From positions 21,686,178 to 21,750,177 of the forward strand of contig NC_063158.1 in the NCBI RefSeq assembly GCF_020921035.1: DNA of 64,000 nt, given 5' to 3'. The DNA comes from Rhodamnia argentea (taxonomy: Eukaryota > Streptophyta > Magnoliopsida > Myrtales > Myrtaceae). Of this stretch, positions 19,805 to 60,101 are shown in pieces (position 1 is the stretch's first letter; each line of letters begins with the position of its first letter). The position numbers and the translations under genes were made by a program. Under the pieces are notes generated by a model, which saw only the letters and a list, made by a program, of their open reading frames with translations, was not told the origin of the DNA and made no database searches.

Positions 19805-20953
19805 ATGGCCCCCCTCTTCCTAGATTGTAAGTTTGTCGTCGTGGCCGCGCTGATTGTGGGGCTTTATGCCTCGCAGGCATGGTCACGCGAGCTACACGAG
19901 CTGTCCATGCAGGAGAGACATGAACAGTGGATGGCTCGTCACGGCCGTGTCTACGAAGATGATGCCGAGAAGGCGAGGCGCTTGACGGTATTCAAGAACA
20001 ATGTCGAATTCATCGAGTCTTTCAATGAAGACGGTGCTAAGCCATACAAGCTAGGCGTCAATGGGTTCACGGATATGACCAACGAGGAGTTCATGGCCTC
20101 GCGAAATGGATACAGGAAGTCGTCCTCTGCGAGGTCATCTGGTGCAAAGTCCTTTCTGTACGAAAATGCAACCGCAGTTCCGTCTACCATGGATTGGAGA
20201 CAGAAAGGAGCCGTCACACCCATTAAGGACCAAGGACAATGCGGTATGGCAAGAAACTTTCCTGTTCGAAACCCTAACCAATCTAACATTCATATGATTT
20301 GGTCCCTTAGATATCAATAGTGACCATCTTCTTATTTTCCTTGACGTTCAGGTTGCTGTTGGGCATTTTCTGCCGTGGCGGCTACAGAAGGGATCAACCA
20401 GCTCACCACGGGAAAACTCGTCTCTCTATCCGAGCAAGAACTAGTGGATTGTGACACGAAAGGCGAAGATCAGGGTTGCGAAGGTGGCCTCATGGATGAT
20501 GCTTTCGAGTTCATCGTCAATAGCCATGGCCTCACGACCGAAGCAAATTATCCCTACGAAGGCGTCGATGGTACTTGCAATGCGAGAAAAGAGGCATCCC
20601 CTGCTGCCAAGATCATCGGCCACGAAGATGTGCCAGCTAATAGCGAGTCGGCTCTTTTGAAGGCCGTCGCTAACCAACCGGTCTCCGTCGCCATCGATGC
20701 TGGAGGATCTGCTTTTCAGTTCTACTCGGGGGGAGTCTTCGCTGGCGACTGCGGGACCGATCTGGACCACGGTGTCACCGCAGTTGGGTACGGGACTAGT
20801 GATGATGGAACCAAATACTGGTTGGTGAAAAATTCGTGGGGCACGGGATGGGGCGAGAATGGATATATAAGGATGAAAAGAGATATCGATGCCGAGGAAG
20901 GGCTATGTGGCATTGCTATGCAAGCTTCTTATCCAACTGCCCAAATGGTTTGA
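19805..20953 (+). CDS. Papain-like cysteine protease (SAG39/SAG12-like), intact
   Basis: Exons 19805-20243 and 20352-20953 join in [10 protein letters not shown] and give 346 residues, the normal length for plant C1A preproproteases. Residues 1 to about 27 are a hydrophobic signal peptide. The inhibitor I29 prodomain (about 38-95) carries the ERFNIN-like helix and [11 protein letters not shown]. The mature enzyme begins near 127 ([13 protein letters not shown]). Catalytic residues are visible: Gln145 of the oxyanion hole, Cys149 in CCWAFS, His286 in [11 protein letters not shown] and Asn307 in KNSWGTGWG. Disulfide cysteines are present ([29 protein letters not shown]). There is no granulin domain and no KDEL tail. 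Such enzymes act in the vacuole or apoplast, often in senescence or defence. A single N-glycosylation site (NAT) lies at the end of the prodomain. The two neighbouring relatives downstream are broken. Confidence 0.95.
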
Positions 20954-25968: not shown

Positions 25969-27225
<1,257 letters not shown>

Positions 27226-29460: not shown

Positions 29461-31007
29461 TCAAGAACGTTTGCCACTATTTGAATTCGACTTGGGGCAA
29501 AGGACCCATCGTCCCTTGGCACGTCTGCGCTTCAAAATTGCTCTTCCACTCGTAGTCCTCATCCTCCTGCGAAAGCCATGGGTTCGAGCCAGAGATTTCC
29601 TCGATCTGTTCCTTTTTGTTAGGCAAAGCGCAGGCTTCCCAGCTCTCACCACCAGGCCACGGCGTTTCTCCGTAGTGGTTCCAAGATGAAAGTTGAAGTT
29701 CAACGTCAAAGACGAACCTGGAAATTGAAATTCACAAATAAGGGAAGGCACAGATGATTCTTCCCTTCTTTCAGTCATCAATGAGCTAAATCAGATGATT
29801 TATCATTTTCCAAAATCAAATGAAGAAGGAAATATATTCCAACATCTAAAAACACTTATGAACCATGCTTCCCACCACAAACTGGAGGGAGGGGAACACT
29901 CAAAAGCATGGTGCACAAGGCTTCAAAGCAGAATTCCTATTGACTCCCAAGCACACATGATTCTTCCTTCTTGCAGTCATCAATGAGCTAAATCAGACGA
30001 TATATCATTTTCCAAAATTGAACGAAGAAGGAAATATATTCCAACATATAAAAACACTTATGAACCATGCTTCCAACTGCAGACCGCAGGAAGGGGAACA
30101 CTGAAAAGCACAGTGCACAAGGCTTCAAAGTAGAATTCCTATTGATTCCCAAACAGTGGAGTTCATGTGCAAGCAAACTAGAGAGCTGCAAACGCAGGCT
30201 CCAAAGGCTAAAGAAGTTTTACTACAAGTGAGTCTACTCTGTAGGGTTTTACTGAGAAAACATGCTTACCCAGTACATATCACGCATTACATATTGAAAT
30301 TCTCTAGACTCTGGAGGCCCCATCACTGTGAAGTGTGCAATTGCAAAGAGAAGGACTTGTTCGACCTACTTCTAACGGCGGCCAATCTAATTTAATAAGA
30401 CTAAACCCAAAAAGACCATTAAAGCACCTAACAAACTCTTTAGCGAGTTCTTGGCAAGTACAAACTCCTATTCAAAGTGAATCTTGCCGTAATACATCAC
30501 TCTTAGACTCCAAGCTGATCGACAAGATCCTCGGACACACAGTTTTACATAGGTATCGAACACCCAATTTGAAACTTCAATCATGCAACACTAGGAAATT
30601 ATGCATATAAAGTAGACACATTTCCCCAAAATCTAACGTGGAGATAACAAATTCTGTCAAAAAACTAAGCATTCAGGGACAAATTCAACTGAATTATATA
30701 TATCAGAGCAAGAATGTCAACTAAAAACCAACGGAAAGCCGTGACCACGAACTCAAACACATGACACACGAGAACATGGAAACGCGAGATTACCAGAGAA
30801 GGAGTTCGGGGAAGAGAGAGGAGACGAGGAGGGCAAGAAAGAGCAGCGAAGCAGAGGCGAGCGAGCCGTGGTCCTCGCGAAGTTCACCGAAGAAGGAGCG
30901 TTGTTCCCTCTCGAGCCCGTGAGGAAGGTGAGGGAAGCGCAGGGACCTCGAGCTTTGCTCCCCAGAGAGAGCGAGCAAGAAGACGAGAGGATCGCTGTGG
31001 AAGCCAT
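29461..31007 (-). CDS. RPL34: Chloroplast 50S ribosomal protein L34 (bL34c)
   Basis: Two exons on the minus strand, 31007-30794 and 29717-29461, give 156 residues. The donor GTAATC and acceptor TTTCCAG are clear, and the join codes G/SSLTLNF. Exon 1 supplies a Ser/Ala/Arg-rich chloroplast transit peptide ([10 protein letters not shown]...). Exon 2 carries the whole L34 domain: [20 protein letters not shown], then [15 protein letters not shown] and a basic C-terminus. bL34 is a small, very basic protein of the large plastid ribosomal subunit and binds 23S rRNA. The family is nuclear-encoded in plants with exactly this head-plus-L34 layout. The start at 31007 lies just after a (CT)n leader. The 1.08-kb intron contains a 203-bp tandem duplication. 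Upstream are several TGGGCT motifs typical of ribosomal-protein promoters. Confidence 0.95.
29754..30152. repeat. 203-bp tandem duplication in the RPL34 intron
   Basis: Unit 1 (about 29754-29956) and unit 2 (about 29957-30152) both contain 'tcatcaatgagctaaatcag', 'gaaggaaatatattccaac', 'cttatgaaccatgcttcc' and 'acaaggcttcaaag'. They differ by scattered substitutions, so the duplication is not very recent. It starts about 35 bp upstream of the exon 2 acceptor, in the direction of transcription. Confidence 0.85.
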
Positions 31008-32452: not shown

Positions 32453-34228
32453 TCATAAGCCAAGTCTAGAGGACTATTCAAAATTCTTTTCTTTTAGGGT
32501 TAATATCACGAAAAACCCTAAATTGGTATACATGTAACAAATTTGCTGTAAACTAATTTTTACTCATAGAAAATCCCAAACCGATACATCCGTGATAACT
32601 TTACTCTCCATTAGTTTTTGTTAAATTTAGTTAATATAACAAAAAATCCCAAACCGGTAAACTTGTAACTAGCGGAGGGTAAAAATCTTAAACTAATATA
32701 CTTGTTAGCCGTCACATATCATCCAACTTAGTAATTTGACGGTGAAATTTAATAAAAACTAACATATGATAAATTTGTCACAAGTGTATCAATTTGTGAT
32801 TTCTGGCGGTCAAAAGAGCTCCTTTGTCAATCACTTCCATTCCTCTAATTAGACCACTTGATTGCTACAAAAATCACCATCAGATTTCTAATTTGTGATA
32901 AATTTGTTATATGTATATCAGTTGATGATTTTTTATGATATTAAACCATTTCTTTTACAATGAGAAAGCTCAATTTAAAGATAAAAATAATTTTCCGACC
33001 TACGAAATACTCCATTAATCTTATGGCCTAACACCCAAAAAAAAAAAAAATCTCAACTTTAGCATCTATCTCAATTATATCCAAAACTTTTTGTTGTCTC
33101 ATAAAAAATCCCAAATTTCTACCGGTTTGATAGCCAAAAAACCCTCAACTTTTACTTTTGTCCCAATTCTACCACCGTCAACCTTCCGTCTATAATCACT
33201 ATTACTTAATCCTATGTGGCTCGAATTTTCTCATTGAACTTATCAATGAATCTTCGAAATTTGAAAACAACAAGTTTCAAGGACGACGAGATTTGAGATT
33301 GTTCATGCAACTAATAAGATCTCCACATCTAGCTGTTTTTTGGGCTGTTGAGTGCCGGGGAGAATCCAAACCTCACCGTCTTGAGTGGCTCCGTATCTCC
33401 TGGCAATTTGCGAGGGAAGCAGCTAACCGAAAAGAAGTTGAGGGTTTTTTCATGTCAGCTTTTCTGAGGTGCAATTCATTAACGATGTGGAAATGCAACG
33501 TATGATTAACTAATAGTGATTATGAAAAAAAATACTAATAGTGGTATAATTAGGACAAAAGTAAAAGTTGGGAGTTTTTTATGAGATAAAAAAATATCTT
33601 GAATATAATTGAGACAAATGCTAAAGTTGAGGGCTATTTGGGTATTAGGCCATAAGATTAGTGGAGCAATTCGTAGGTTGGAGAATTATTTATCTCTAAA
33701 TTGAGCTTTCTCATCATAAAAGAAATGGTTTAATACTATGAAAAATCCTAAACATACATGTGACAAATTTATCACAAACTTGAAATCCAATGGTGTTTTT
33801 TATGGCATTCCAAGTGGTCTAATCAGAGGAATGGAAGTGATTGACACATGAGCTCTTTTGACTACAAAAAATCACAAATTAATACATTTGTAATAAATTT
33901 ATCATCCGTTAGTTTTCATTAAATTAAACTGTCAAATTATTGAGTAGATGGCACGTGGCAATTGACGGGTGTATTAGTTTGGGATTTTTACTCTCTATTT
34001 GTTATAGGTATGTCGGTTTGGGTTTTTTTGTTATAAATAACCCAATTTAATGGAAACTAATAGAGGATAAATTTATCACGGATATACAACTTTGAGATTT
34101 TTTATGGGAAAAATTAATTTAGAGTAAATTTATCACATACATACCAATTTAAAGTTTTTTTTTTATGATATTAACCTTAAAAGAAAAGAGTTTTGAATAG
34201 TTCTCTCAACTTGTCTCCAATCTTATGG
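32453..34228. mobile_element. Long inverted-repeat (foldback-type) element
   Basis: The left arm (about 32453-33220) and right arm (about 33498-34228) are inverted copies of each other. The outer ends are 'cataagccaagtctagag' with 'actattcaaaattcttttct', against 'gaactattcaaaactctttt' on the other strand. The match continues through 'ctcattagaccacttg'-like words and 'cttatggcctaa(c/t)acccaaa' to 'aatcactattagttaatc'. Identity looks like roughly 85 percent by eye. A spacer of about 277 bp (33221-33497) has unrelated sequence. There is no transposase frame. The shape is that of foldback elements or long-TIR MITEs. If transcribed through, it would form a very long hairpin. Confidence 0.7.
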
Positions 34229-34509: not shown

Positions 34510-35854
34510 ATGAGCAAAACTATGGATGCAACAGCAAAAAGTTCAGCTCAAGGATACGTCAAGGATGAGATTGCCCGAAAATGGAGGCTCCTATGTGGAG
34601 AAGATAACTGGGAGGGTTTGCTAGATCCTCTCGACATCGATCTCCGCCGTGTTATCATTCACTATGGAGAGATGGCTCAGGCCACATACGACACACTTCG
34701 ACACGGAGAAGGCATCGAGATTTGCTGGGAGTAGCCGATACGCAAAGAGAGATTTCTTCTCTAAGGTTGGCCTCGACAAGGGAAACCCGTTTAAGTACTT
34801 CGCCACCAAATTCTTGTATGCAACCTCGGAAATTCATGTCCCCAGCACTTTTCTTATCAAGCCTCTATCACGAGAGGCTTGGAGGAAGGAGTCGAATTGG
34901 ATTGGGTATGTTGCAGTGGCCACGGATGAAGGGAAGGCCGCGTTGGGCCGGAGGGACATTGTCGTGGCATGGCGAGGGACGGAGCGAACCTTGGAGTGGG
35001 TTGATGATCTGGAGTTCAATTTGGTTTCAGCTTCCAAAATACTTGGCAAGGCTAATGATCCTAAGGTGCACCATGGTTGGTACTCAATCTACACTTCTAG
35101 TGACCCACGTTCGCCGTTCAGCAAGAAGAGTGCTAGACATCAGGTTAGCTTCTTTTACTTCCCAATTCCTTTGAAGCTCAATTAAAATTTTTCAAAGGGA
35201 CCTAATATCTGGAGAGGACATCATCATTCTCTTTATATGTAGGTTCTTGAAGAAATAAGGAGACTCGTCGACTTGTACAAAGATGAAGAAATCAGCATCA
35301 CAGTCACTGGGCACAGCTTGGGCGCTGCAGTTGCGACGCTGAATGCCGTTGATATTGTTTCCAATGCATTCAACAAGCCCATTGGTCACCAAAGTAAAGG
35401 TTGTCCGGTCACAGCCATTGTGTTTGCTAGCCCTAGAGTTGGAGATTCGAACTTCAGGAAGGTGTTTTCTGAGCTTGCTGATCTTCGAGCTTTGCGAGTC
35501 CACAATGTGTTAGACATCGTCCCTAAATACCCATTCCTAGGCTATTCAGATGTCGGGGAAGAGCTAGTGATCGATTCTCGCAATTCCAAGTACTTGAAGA
35601 GTCCTGGAAATGTCTCAAGTTGGCATAGTCTTGAAGTTTACCTTCACTGTGTAGCAGGGACGCAAGGCACTAATGGAGGCTTCAAGCTCATGGTTAATCG
35701 CGATATCACGCTTATAAACAAAACCCTTGATGCTTTAAAAGATGAATATCTTGTGCCAGCCTCATGGTGGTGTCCGGAGAATAAGGGCATGGTTCAACAT
35801 GGGGATGGCTCTTGGAAGTTAATGGAGCACGAAGACGATGACCCCGACAGCTGA
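34510..35854 (+). pseudogene. Phospholipase A1-II (class III lipase) gene with one frameshift
   Basis: Exons are 34510-35143 and 35243-35854 (donor GTTAGC, acceptor TATGTAG). The protein starts [12 protein letters not shown] and shows the PLA1-II N-terminus ([33 protein letters not shown]). At about 34692-34697 one extra base shifts the frame. The original frame ends in TAG at 34732. The other frame continues as [21 protein letters not shown] and stays open to the end. The family's features follow: [11 protein letters not shown], the nucleophile elbow [11 protein letters not shown] with the catalytic Ser, [11 protein letters not shown] with the Asp, and [11 protein letters not shown] with the His. 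Without the shift the length would be about 415, normal for cytosolic plant PLA1-II enzymes that release fatty acids from phospholipids and galactolipids. With everything else intact it may be a recent null allele or an assembly error. Confidence 0.85.
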
Positions 35855-54824: not shown

Positions 54825-57800
54825 CTAACTCAAAGCAAATGAGCCCGACGGGTGGGCTTCAGTACAAAGTAAATCCCAAAGAGCAAAAGGGGGAGAGGAA
54901 ACCCAATCCAGAGGTAATACATTTTTCCTGTGATTTTTAGCTATCCAATCTGCAATCCGATTAGCTTCTCTTGACACATAGGATACCCGACACTTAGGAA
55001 AATGGACTAAAATATCCTTGCATCTTCTGATTGGCACGTGAATTTCCCACGCGGTTGTGAGTGGGCATGAGAGGGCTTCCACAAGTGGCGACTCTGTCTC
55101 TATGCACTTCATCAACGAGATAGTCCTCCAGCATCTAGGGCTTCGGCTTCTTTAGATTGGAGAGAAAGATTGCACCTCAAGCTTCGACTAAAGCAAGGGC
55201 TTCGACCATGATGGCCGGCAGGCAACCATGTCTTCGCCCCTCCGTTTATCGGTCGGCCGGTGGAATCGAGACGGCCATGCGATAGAGCCTTCCTCGAACC
55301 GGGTAGAAAGCTCCGTCAATGTTCACCTTAAAAGCTTGGTTTTTAGGGGGCTTCCGGTAGTCAAGGATGTTCCTTCGTTGATTCTGATTTGCAAGCTGAA
55401 AAGTTCCATTTTTGAAAGCAATGTAGGGTAATTAACGCTGTCTCCACGATAGCGGCGGGATCAGGCTTCTTCTTCTTGAAGACGTTTTCATTCCTTGCTT
55501 TCCAGATTCCCCAAAGGACCGCAGAAATTGTGGCTAGATCTGGTGAGTCGTTTTGAATTTTCGCAAAATTGCATACCCATTCTTCAATTCGAGATAACCC
55601 TTTGCTTGAGATTCGCAGGTTCAGCTTTGGATTTGCCCAAATCTCTTTGGTCCCGGCAAAGAAGACATAAATGCTCGTTGTCTCGGGCTTGGTTACACAA
55701 GGGGCAAACGGGGTCAGGTACTATTTTCCTGCGGTAGAGATTGTCCTTGGTGGGGAGAGCATTCTGGCACAAACTCCACATGAAGAATCTGATTTTTGGG
55801 GGAATCCTCAGTTTCCAAATATCTTTCCAGAGGGTGCAAGGGGGAAGGTAGGAACTTGATGCTTGATTCTCTATCTGAGTTGTTATAGATGCACGAATGT
55901 AATGATATCCGCTTTTAACGGTGTACTTTCCTGACTGTGTGTCTGGCCACACAATCTGATCACTCTCTGTTTGGGGTTTGATTGGAATTGTGAGGATTTC
56001 TTGCACCGTGTTCTCATCAAAGTGTTCTTGTAAAATGTCTCCATTCCAACATTCTGCGTCTGTAGATATGAGTCCTGACACGAATTGAGGTTCATTTCTC
56101 TTCGCAGGGCCAACTAGGATCCCTTTCTTTAGCCACTTGTCTTCTCTCACTTTGATTCCAGTTCCATTCCCTACAGCCCACATAACTGAAGGAGAAATAG
56201 AATCCCTTCCCACCAATAAGCTTTGCCAGCCCCAAGATGAGCGTTGCCCCCTATCTGCGTGCCAAAAGTCTCTATTTGGAAAGTAAAGACCTTTGAACAG
56301 TTGACTCCATGGGGAGTTGGAGTTGTGGCCTAAGCGCCAAGCTTGTTTTGCTAACATTGCTTTGTTGAAGTCCAGCAAATCTCGAAATCCCAAGCCACCT
56401 ACGTCCTTTCTTGTTTTCAGCAGTTCCCACTTTTTCCAGTGAACACCAGCTTTTGTCTCATTTGTCTTCCACCAGAATTGTGCTATTTTCTGCTCAATCG
56501 CCTTGCAAACTGAGACGGGAATTTTGAAAACTGACATGGCATATTGTGGAAGAGCTTGCACCACCGTTTTAATCAAGATTTCTTTGCCTGCTCTTGACAT
56601 TAATTTCTCCTTCCAACCTTCCAGCTTTTTGCTAACTCGTCCCAGAATCCAGGAAAACATTTGCTTTTTGTAACGCCCCAATCCGAAGGAATCCCGGGGT
56701 ATTTTCCAGTTTTCTCCAAAATAGGCACTCTCAACTCCCCGGCCATATTTTCTTTAAGGTTTGGAGGGCAATCTCTACTAAAGAAAATCCCTGATTTGTT
56801 TAAATTAATCTGCTGTCCCGAAGCCATACAATATTGGTTCAGAATTGATGCTAAGTTTTGGCATTCCAGCACCTTCCCATCTAGAAAAAAGATCGAGTCA
56901 TCTGCAAACAGTAGATGGGAAAGAGTAGGGCACCACCTGTTGAGTTTAATACCCTTTATGCTGCCATCTTCCATAGCCTTTCTCATCAGTGAAGTTAAGA
57001 CATTAGCCACCAGGATGAAAAGATATGGGGATAAAGGGTCCCCTTGCCTAATTCCTCGAGAAGGCACAAAATATTCAAGAGGCTCGCCATTTATTTTAAG
57101 GCTAAATGATACTGTACTAACACACTGCATAATCCAGCCGATCCATCTCTTGTGGAAGCCAACTTTACTTAAGCATGCCTCTAAGAACTCCCATTCCACA
57201 CGATCATAAGCTTTTTTCATATCAAGCTTCAAGACTGCCTGGAACTTTTTCCTTCTTTTTCGAACTCTGAGCTGATGTAATACTTCCTGCACCACAAAAA
57301 TGTTATCTTGAATTTGTCTTCCCCCAACAAAAGCACTTTGTTCCTCAGCTATGATTTGTGGCAGTAATGGCTTGAGTCTGTTTGCTAACACTTTAGCAAT
57401 GATTTTATAGCTAAAGTTGCATAAACTGATAGGGCGATATTGATCAAGCGTCTCAGGGTGTGGGACCTTTGGTATCAGGGAAATTTGGGTTCTGTTCAGT
57501 CCATGCGGCATGTTTCCAGATTTGAAAAATGCTTTAATCTCATTGAAAATATCCGGCTTTAACACATCCCAATTCTGTTGGTAAAAGAGGCCATTTAGTC
57601 CATCTGGTCCCGGTGCTTTAGTGGCCCCAAGCTGAAAAATAGCTTGTTGAACTTCTTCAATAGTCACCTCAGCTAGCAAAGAGTTGTTCATTTCCTCAGT
57701 AACGACCTTGGGGCATTGCTCCAGAATAGGGGAGAAAGGACGACATCCCTCAGATTGGTAAAGTTCCTTAAAATACTGCACAGTAGCTTGTTTAATCTGT

Positions 57801-58959
57801 TGTGGTTCAGATATCCATTCGTTGGATGAGTCTTTAATCATTGATAGTCTGTTTCTTTGTCTTCGCTGGATTGTGGTAGCATGAAAGAATTTAGTATTTT
57901 TATCCCCCCACCGCAGCCAATGTATCCGTGATCTCACCCCCAGTACATCTCCTCTTGCCTCCACAAAAATTCAATTTCCCCTTGCAACTGCTTCACTTTC
58001 TCTCTCTCAAAAGGCCTGTGACTGCTGTTCATATGGTGCTGGATTTCCTGTTTCAGCCAGTTTATTCTTTCTTTCCCATTCCAAAAAGCTTTCTTGCTCC
58101 ATCTAGATAAAGCATCAGAGGTTGCCAACAACTTGCCCTCTAAATTCTTCATAGCATGCGCGGGTGACTCCCAAGCCTCTCGAATAACTTCTCTGCAATT
58201 GTCGTTCTCAAGCCAAAATGCTTCAAATTTAAATTCTCGTATTCTTTTCTTCTTATCAGCCTGAGTTGACAAAATTATGGGACTGTGGTCAGACCCTACA
58301 GCAGGAAGTGCGAAAACTTCTGCTTCGGGGAACAAAAGTCTCCATTCGATATTGCACAAGACTCTGTCAAGGCGTTCTTTGATATTCTCATCTCCATTTC
58401 TGTTGTTTGACCACGTGAAGGCACAACCTTTACTTTCTAAATCCATCAAAGAACAAGCTTCCAGCATATTTTGGAAATTTGTCATTCGAGAATTTTCAGC
58501 CATATACCTGCCCAATTTCTCCCAACAGAACAACACCTCATTAAAGTCGCCCAAGCAAACCCAAGGCAACACATTGGAAAAACTGATTTCACGAAGCTTC
58601 TCTCAAAGTTGAAGTCTTCTCTGGAAGTTATAAGGAGCATGAATAAAGGTGATTCTCATCCTTTTGCCACTCATCAAGTCTTTACATCTAAGATTCATAT
58701 AACTCTCCGATTCTGTGTCAAAAGTAAGCTCAACTCTATCATCCCATAAGATAGCCAAACCCCCAGCAGTACCAATCGGGTCAACCACCCTGCAGTATGG
58801 AAAATTTAACCTTCGCCTTATTTTCTGAAGAGCTACCTCCTGGTTCTTTGTTTCCATCAAAAAAATCACAGCGGGCCTGAAGCGAGCCACAAGGGCTCTT
58901 AGTTCGCGAACTGTCAAGGGTGTGCCCAACCCTTGACAGTTCCAACATAGGGCATTCAT
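54825..58959 (-). pseudogene. LINE ORF2 (endonuclease, reverse transcriptase, RNase H-like), broken
   Basis: Starts MNALCWNCQGLGTP, an APE-type endonuclease, with METKNQ, LGDFNEVL and SDHSPI motifs. The reverse transcriptase follows, with FFHATTIQRR, KAPGPDGLNG, QYRPISLCNF, LKLDMKKAYDRVEW, PSRGIRQGDPLSP and the catalytic LLFADDSIFF. A zinc-binding module (CPLC) comes next, then an RNase H-like tail (VSYVSREANRIADWIAKNH, 55115-54825). It is interrupted: an in-frame TGA at 58603 in the endonuclease, frameshifts near 57935 and 56680 and one near 55660, plus several stops in the degenerate stretch 55450-55120. In a working element this single polyprotein of about 1,350 residues would cut the target and copy the RNA. 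The ATG overlaps the ORF1 stop as ATGA. Confidence 0.9.
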
Positions 58960-60101
58960 TTTTCCTTTGGTGGCTTATTAGGGCTAGCCACCAAAGCCCA
59001 TTCAGCAGTATCAGTTGTACGAACCGGTGTATCCAGTAGTTGGGTCTCATCCAAACAGGCACGTGTCGAAGTCTCAGAAAGGTAAGGGCAGTACCTTCGC
59101 TGCCTTTTGATTGAAGGTGTTTTAGGTTCTTTACAGCTCTTCTTTTTGTTAACCTTGTTGTTCTGTCCCTGGGGAGGTGCCTGTTGCTGTGGAATTCCAG
59201 AGTGATCAGGAGTAACTAGCGGAGCCTCCCCCAATACAAGATTCTGCCCTAGCTGCTCTTGTGTTTCAGGTATGATCTCTTCAACAGCAACTGCATTTTC
59301 TGTTGTTTTTTTAGCATAAAACACATCCCAAAAAGGGCTGTGGTCTTGAACTTCTGCACGCAGCCAATTGCCAAAACAGCTTCCCATTTTTGTTGTAAAC
59401 TTGTCTTCATCGTAAGGGACATCTTTACAATAGCTTGCATAATGTCCTATCTTTCCACATGAGTAGCAAAAGAAAGGGAGTCTTTCATATTTAAAATCGA
59501 GCCAGATTTTCCTGCCTCGATGTGTGGTTGACTGGCCCACACTCAGCTCAGCATGAACATCCAGCTCTACTCTGGCCTTTACAACCCGTTGGATAGCCGA
59601 ACCTGTGTCCTCTAGCTTCACTTCCAGCACTTGCCCCATGGTACTAGCAATTTTTCTCACAATTCCAGCAGATTTCCACTCAAGGGGAAGGCCTAATATT
59701 CTGACCCAGAAGGCACAAGTATCGAATTCATAGCATTGTGGGGGCAGATCCGGTTCCCAATCCTTCAACAGCAATAACTGATTGGAGAAAGACCACGGCC
59801 CCCCATCCAGCACCCTTTTTTTCTCTGCAGCACTTCTAAAGGTAAAACTGTAAAGACCATCTTCCCAGGGTGTGATGTCGATGGTGTCATTTCTCCAGGC
59901 CTTTTTCATTGCTGTTTGGAAAGCCTGAAAGTTGATGCTAGGGGTTTGGAAGAGGTGTCCCACAAGGGAATGTTGACATTCTGTCAGTTTTTCCTCCAAA
60001 AAGTCATCATCACAGATAGTAATGTCTTGTTTATGCATTAACCGACCGAGCTTATTGCAGAGTGTTTCCAAACGAGCACCAGCACCATTATTCTCGTCCA
60101 T
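58956..60101 (-). CDS. LINE ORF1 protein (DUF4283, CCHC zinc knuckle)
   Basis: An unbroken 381-residue frame. The N-terminal half is the DUF4283 domain (about residues 35-180; VGHLFQTPSINFQAFQTAM, LDGGPWSFSNQLLLLKDWEP, FWVRILGLPLEW). A zinc knuckle follows (about 225-240; CYSCGKIGHYASYC, CX2CX4HX4C). The C-terminal third is polar and Pro/Gln/Lys-rich. Plant L1 ORF1 proteins bind the element's RNA and form the retrotransposition particle. Its stop codon TGA (58958-58956) overlaps the ORF2 ATG (58959-58957) by the sequence ATGA, so ORF2 could be reached by termination and re-initiation. That this frame is whole while ORF2 is not suggests a recent arrival. Confidence 0.92.
   Translation of the reverse strand: MDENNGAGARLETLCNKLGRLMHKQDITICDDDFLEEKLTECQHSLVGHLFQTPSINFQAFQTAMKKAWRNDTIDITPWEDGLYSFTFRSAAEKKRVLDGGPWSFSNQLLLLKDWEPDLPPQCYEFDTCAFWVRILGLPLEWKSAGIVRKIASTMGQVLEVKLEDTGSAIQRVVKARVELDVHAELSVGQSTTHRGRKIWLDFKYERLPFFCYSCGKIGHYASYCKDVPYDEDKFTTKMGSCFGNWLRAEVQDHSPFWDVFYAKKTTENAVAVEEIIPETQEQLGQNLVLGEAPLVTPDHSGIPQQQAPPQGQNNKVNKKKSCKEPKTPSIKRQRRYCPYLSETSTRACLDETQLLDTPVRTTDTAEWALVASPNKPPKEK

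Follow-up and report, generated by a model that had tools for sequence, protein, structure and literature searches.

A 1.76-kb near-palindrome in Rhodamnia argentea interpreted as a fold-back inverted duplication around a MITE

Upstream of a class-3 lipase gene of Rhodamnia argentea lies a 1.76-kb near-palindrome whose structure can be interpreted: it is not a new transposon but rather a variant of a known rearrangement, and it carries a testable signature. We consider it probable that the locus arose by fold-back inverted duplication, with the MITE at its center, termed here element A, as the point of nucleation. The DNA analyzed was a stretch of 64 kb (C9:21686178-21750177; hereafter the window), and the genome searched comprises 346,658,060 bases in 74 contigs.

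Aligned in inverted orientation, positions 32458-33122 and 34216-33561 are identical in 533 of 672 columns (23 of them gap columns) with a local alignment score of 642. When one arm was shuffled 200 times in 2-base blocks, the highest score was 37, and among up to 300 randomly placed segments of the window (starts between 30.5 and 34.3 kb being skipped) it was 66. Of all inverted matches listed in the 64 kb, that between the two arms is the strongest (668 columns, E 2e-160), and the additional inverted matches 33136-33175 / 33541-33580 and 33192-33220 / 33495-33523 are part of the terminal repeats of A. With scores so far above those of the controls, the near-palindrome that an earlier note had reported from the sequence alone is real; its long arms were correctly recognized, but the ends proposed there, 32453 and 34228, were about 5 and 12 bp too wide. 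The arms are only 79% identical, which argues against a recent foldback artefact of reads or assembly, and that explanation was therefore rejected. The constituent features are as follows:

32458..33024, plus strand: left arm, from the alignment; the presumed original left flank of A, made of locus-specific DNA and a nested element B, with the direction of copying judged from the displaced target copy
32488..32496 (outer) and 32949-32957 (inner), plus strand: target-site duplication of B, TTTCTTTTA, in the left arm
32497..32947, plus strand: element B of the left arm, a MULE-type MITE with the terminal inverted repeat GGGTTAATATCA and a plastid fragment
32816..32856, minus strand: 41-bp fragment of plastid atpB in the left B
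33016..33024, plus strand: presumed left target-site duplication of A, TAATCTTAT
33025..33651, plus strand: element A, multicopy and MITE-like, at the center of the palindrome, with terminal inverted repeats of tandem units, GGCCTAAYACCC / GGGTATTAGGCC
33221..33497, plus strand: core of element A, multicopy in the genome search
33652..34216, minus strand: right arm, from the alignment; the presumed inverted copy of the left flank, with no second full-length genome copy among the scored candidates
33727..34177, minus strand: element B of the right arm, in the mirrored position
34178..34186 (outer) and 33717-33725 (inner), minus strand: target-site duplication of B, TTTCTTTTA, in the right arm
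33815..33855, plus strand: 41-bp fragment of plastid atpB in the right B
34218..34226, plus strand: presumed right target-site duplication of A, CAATCTTAT, displaced to the outside of the right arm
34510..35854, plus strand (stretch examined): class-3 lipase gene, named phospholipase A1-like by the earlier reader, with an interrupted first-exon frame

The key to the structure is the segment 33221-33497, previously described as an unrelated spacer. This proved to be the core of A, the ends of which form the symmetry axis: a genome search with the core yielded 382 candidates, and all of the best 40 that were scored match it, the window itself at 100% and the other scored places at 78-83% identity. 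Other copies of A are mostly longer than the one in the window, many being near 800 bases in length, and their terminal inverted repeats consist of tandemly arranged units, roughly 108 bases long, that start with a form of GGCCTAATACCC; by our reading, the window copy possesses two such units in its left repeat, the inner one shortened, and a single unit in its right repeat, with 84% identity between the outer units over 89 ungapped sites. A test for target-site duplications was given 25 loci of A, 23 of which gave a result, and six (L076, L082, L071, L081, L007 and L072) scored at least 6, with duplications of 8-10 bp, as against 1% of 509 mismatched-pair controls reaching that score. A further copy, L099, displays a perfect 10-bp target duplication. 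On the evidence of the genome searches, A is an independent multicopy element.

Examination of the junctions showed that the mirrored flanks begin at the very base adjoining A on both sides, ...AATCTTAT abutting GGCC on the left and GGCC abutting ATAAGATT... on the right. Two hallmarks of fold-back duplication are present at this locus, namely a central spacer flanked by inverted homology, in this case the terminal repeats at both edges of A, and an inverted copy that starts exactly where the inverted homology stops; the spacer, moreover, is a multicopy element occurring once at this locus. No direct duplication flanks A in the window. Within the 64 kb the plus strand contains AATCTTAT at just three places: 24634, 33017-33024, where it adjoins A, and 34219-34226, 2 bp beyond the right arm. 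The last of these, the presumed displaced target copy, matches over 8 bp (8 of 9 over 9 bp) and was noticed post hoc; with three occurrences in 64,000 positions and an estimated 12 or so places examined after the fact, the probability of a chance match outside the right arm is, as a rough estimate, of the order of 1 in 1000. By this match the inverted copy lies between A and the presumed right target copy of A, and the left arm is therefore best regarded as the template and the right arm as its copy.

Both arms contain a nested copy of B, whose terminal word GGGTTAATATCA and target duplications of 9 bp are MULE-like. B is multicopy, with 2128 and 2256 candidates recovered by the left and right versions respectively, the best 40 of which were scored for each. 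The target-duplication test on B was given 56 loci (53 distinct places), 31 of them with a usable pair of ends; exact 9-bp duplications abut both ends in 4 of these 31 rows, and seven further rows score at least 6 (two of which represent the same place and one a run of A), while the mismatched-pair control covered A only. As for the atpB fragment, the right-arm version matches at 39 of 41 positions atpB-like copies on contig C43, the copy there being recognized as ATP-synt_ab_N, and, twice, on C2, and at 38 of 41 positions one on C1; this piece is possibly break-repair filler inside the element. The target duplication of B and the atpB piece are common to both arms, and a single insertion of B therefore preceded the duplication. 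With the order of parts likewise being common to the two arms, the proposal that one event made both of them is upheld. A search with 32800-33024 recovered the left arm as a whole and the right arm over 10-225 of its 225 positions, but no other nearly full-length match among the best 40 of 57 candidates that were scored; the remaining matches among these were short pieces of B or of atpB sequence. The earlier note had held that arms occurring elsewhere with different ends would refute its reading: this is what we found for the B part of the arms, but not for the remaining arm DNA.

The following series of events would generate this arrangement. B, already carrying or later gaining the 41-bp atpB piece, would have resided in locus-specific DNA upstream of the lipase gene; A would then have inserted about 80 bp from B, duplicating a target of 9-10 bp (..TAATCTTAT). 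The anatomy behind these two steps, along with the exact symmetry about A and the repeated target word, can be read directly from the DNA. A break at the right end of A would subsequently have exposed a strand of A that folded on its own terminal repeats, allowing its 3' end to prime on the left flank and to copy about 570 nt of it, B included. The new end would have been joined to the original right flank, which still started with the right target copy of A, and the arms would since have diverged, faster in their transposon parts through transitions. We infer the break, the folding and the direction of copying; that the break was made by a transposase is suggested more weakly, by its position at the end of the element.

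We then compared the flanks of 48 loci of A, these being 47 copies fetched from ranked match lists and the window; 47 were evaluated, with L083 being skipped, and the flanks were often short (the median of the shorter side being 361 bases), such that arms lying further out would be missed. The inverted-flank score was 544 for the window, 269 for L005 and 63 for the next locus, L099. Inverted flanks accordingly occur in 2 of the 47 evaluated copies, L005 being the only one besides the window (1 of 46). In cross-locus controls 6 of 2162 pairs reach 63, and one, L007/L110 with a score of 497, exceeds the 269 of L005. In that pair the match joins the left flank of one locus to the right flank of the other in reverse complement, pointing to flanks shared between the two, perhaps via a duplication. 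An inverted match at L075 was discounted, as it lies mostly within A itself. At L005 the arms, 1025-1325 and 2664-2377, agree in 242 of 306 columns, and in a genome search the arm was recovered at its own two places along with two partial matches. The left arm ends within about 1 base of A; the right arm is separated from A by about 170 bp of locus-specific DNA with no other genome match. No displaced target copy of the predicted kind was found at L005; the word adjoining A on the left is repeated there solely beyond the left arm, with one mismatch, and not in the predicted place. The inverted arms of L005 count in favor of the fold-back scheme; its missing displaced copy, the 170 bp on its right, the small number of such A copies and the control pair scoring above it count against. 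As a separate observation, inverted arms of 67% identity at L016 (512-1171 and 1882-2554) surround a copy of B and match none of the other loci with which they were compared; these are perhaps an older case of the same kind.

The configuration of L005, with a switch some 170 bp outside A, bears on the best of the alternative explanations, namely that copying switched at a point other than a break at the end of A. The terminal repeats of A, which are near-complementary and variable in their number of units, would be in keeping with such a switch; against it, the right target copy seems to have been kept in full at the junction in the window, and this speaks for a break at the end of the element. 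We give this alternative a real chance, if less than an even one.

We consider it unlikely that A merely inserted at the center of an older inverted repeat. A does enter other repeats: at L099 it sits in one, with the perfect duplication TATATTTTCA kept at both of its ends, and this locus, which was rejected as a third case for that reason, has the look of an insertion of A into an existing inverted repeat. The window locus differs, for the direct duplication of 8-10 bp that such an insertion is expected to leave at A is absent, and this contrast between the two loci counts in favor of the fold-back scheme. A clear duplication was seen at only 6 of the 25 A loci given, so that its absence is weak evidence when taken alone; but the mirrored flanks reach right up to the outermost base of A on either side, and the insertion would need to have fallen precisely on the dyad without any duplication.

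Comparison of the arms with each other and with other copies of B bears on a further alternative, in which the arms were built piecemeal by two independent insertions of B or by ectopic gene conversion. Differences between the arms number 16 in 157 sites outside B and 86 in 402 within it (p = 0.002), an approximately twofold excess in B that lies in transitions (p = 0.004), with transversions not being significant (p = 0.5). In trees of the B bodies from the two arms and 56 other rows (53 distinct places), with 200 bootstrap trees each, the left and right bodies were paired in 0% of the 200 bootstrap trees in each of the two trees computed, and it is this lack of a sister relationship that favors piecemeal assembly. 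A strongly supported clade in the first tree, holding the left arm without the right, was set aside, since it seemed to stem mainly from misaligned first columns (7 of 17 diagnostic columns); in the trimmed tree this clade is gone and the arms are still unpaired. Between the two B bodies there are 14 transversions in 289 sites; by this measure 51 of the 53 distinct other copies lie further from the left B than the right B does, and all 53 lie further from the right B than the left B does. When all differences are counted, 6 of the 53 are nearer to the left B than the right B is, and 14 are nearer to the right B than the left B is; the copies compared were those picked as best matches to either arm. 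Set against piecemeal assembly are the identity of 87-89% in the parts outside B and of 93% in the atpB stretch, their mirrored order, and the target duplication of B common to both arms, all of which make this alternative very improbable. We explain the pattern by one origin of both B bodies, after which methylated transposon DNA would have undergone fast deamination, seen as transitions; alternatively, the extra divergence in B may stem from conversion of one B by a further copy. Plant DNA accumulates substitutions at about 7e-9 per site and year, and at this rate the corrected distance of 12-14% outside B and in the atpB piece would place the origin of the arms, very roughly, at 8-10 million years ago.

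The least likely explanation is the one implied by the earlier term foldback element, that of a 1.76-kb transposon (foldback or MULE) with long terminal inverted repeats that inserted as a unit: despite the long inverted arms around a core and the MULE-like sequence within them, it is already largely refuted, as the core is part of a different element that has ends of its own, neither the whole unit with the same ends nor the arm parts outside A and B have another copy among the best 40 candidates scored per search, the outer flanks have no other genome match over the parts outside the lipase exon, and an outer target-site duplication was not found, the best direct match in the positions tested being 4 bp.

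The proposal that the locus can form a long hairpin is supported by RNA folding. The predicted fold of the plus-strand RNA has an energy of -802 kcal/mol, compared with -340 to -353 for five shuffles and -389 to -534 for six other segments of the window; 609 of its 700 pairs join the two arms, including stacked runs of 41, 35 and 25 pairs. If transcribed, the locus may therefore give rise to a long hairpin RNA suited to Dicer-like enzymes. No Rfam family matched at its gathering score in the 64-kb window. The placement of the palindrome relative to the lipase gene was also correctly noted: it lies about 290 bp upstream, with ATGs at 34510 and 34522. In the first exon, 34522-34740, the frame opened by the ATG at 34522 reaches a stop after 70 codons, and the similarity to lipases lies in a different frame; the gene may be a pseudogene or the sequence may contain wrong base calls. 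Any effect of the palindrome on this gene is a matter of speculation. Elsewhere in the window we observed papain-type cysteine protease domains at 20375-20953 and 25969-26490, possibly representing two genes; a 202-bp unit in two tandem copies, 89% matching, at 29748-30152; and, at 55584-60101, the remains of a non-LTR retrotransposon in several reading frames, with reverse transcriptase and zf-RVT domains, a weak endonuclease match and a DUF4283 domain with a zinc knuckle.

Among plants, inverted duplications are known from Tam3/nivea in Antirrhinum. At the level of the portions of the literature available to us, to which all the comparisons that follow are limited, several systems resemble parts of the present locus. 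Both yeast and human provide established cases of fold-back inverted duplication (PMC7467729, PMC3907307, PMC10164571). Human spacers are flanked by inverted homology, with inverted Alu or LINE copies at 3 of 21 sequenced junctions (PMC3907307), and in yeast only heterology above 25% suppresses the instability of inverted repeats in single-stranded DNA (PMC10164571), a limit with which the 84% identity of the outer repeat units of the window A over 89 ungapped sites may be compared. These events (PMC3907307, PMC7467729, PMC10164571) are on the scale of chromosome arms and come with dicentrics, terminal deletions or translocations, whereas the present copy spans about 570 bp, connects again to the original right flank and has one whole MITE as its spacer. 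MULEs with tandem long terminal repeats in tomato and Arabidopsis (PMC3310237) have terminal repeats of tandem units, asymmetric in some copies, as in A; inverted copying of flanks is not treated in that portion, and A is assigned here to no named family. In the account of Pack-TIRs in animals by FoSTeST and gap filling (PMC8277862), a TIR element likewise suffers a break or stall, whereupon DNA nearby is taken as the template, but the foreign DNA ends up between the terminal repeats, while in our case flanking DNA was copied in inverted form outside the element. Mu killer (PMC3440606) similarly involves an inverted duplication with Mutator-type sequence and a proposed hairpin RNA; it duplicates part of the transposase gene itself, in contrast to the flanking DNA and MITE seen here. 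The inverted-duplication model of plant miRNAs (PMC3237417) also derives hairpin RNA from inverted plant DNA and discusses MITEs as a source, either by forming the hairpin themselves or by inserting twice in opposite orientation; in the part available there is no mention of a MITE forming the loop between copied flanks. A 2026 review on how plant transposons capture genes (PMC13317346) contains, in the portion available, no description of precisely this structure, and we found no account of it among the titles and abstract openings of a literature that took in few subscription journals, so it may have been published. Fold-back duplication as such is already known; what is new is a whole MITE serving as the loop, perhaps via failed excision.

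The inverted-duplication model of new small-RNA genes has a gap where the origin of inverted duplications of ordinary plant DNA is concerned. The present locus displays a loop, an axis and a displaced target copy, and with these a signature that can be searched for: a MITE between inverted locus-specific arms, with a second target copy beyond the far arm. Where a genome contains hundreds of such MITEs, counts of this signature can serve as a test of the model. The break seemingly lies at the end of the element, which suggests failed excision: a transposase would cut one end, the freed end would fold and copy hundreds of flanking bases in inverted orientation, and the flank would be rejoined with its target copy intact. 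That hairpin loci repeatedly arise through such abortive excision of MITEs with long terminal repeats is a tentative and rather doubtful generalization; if true, abortive excision would turn arbitrary plant DNA into long hairpins able to feed small-RNA pathways.
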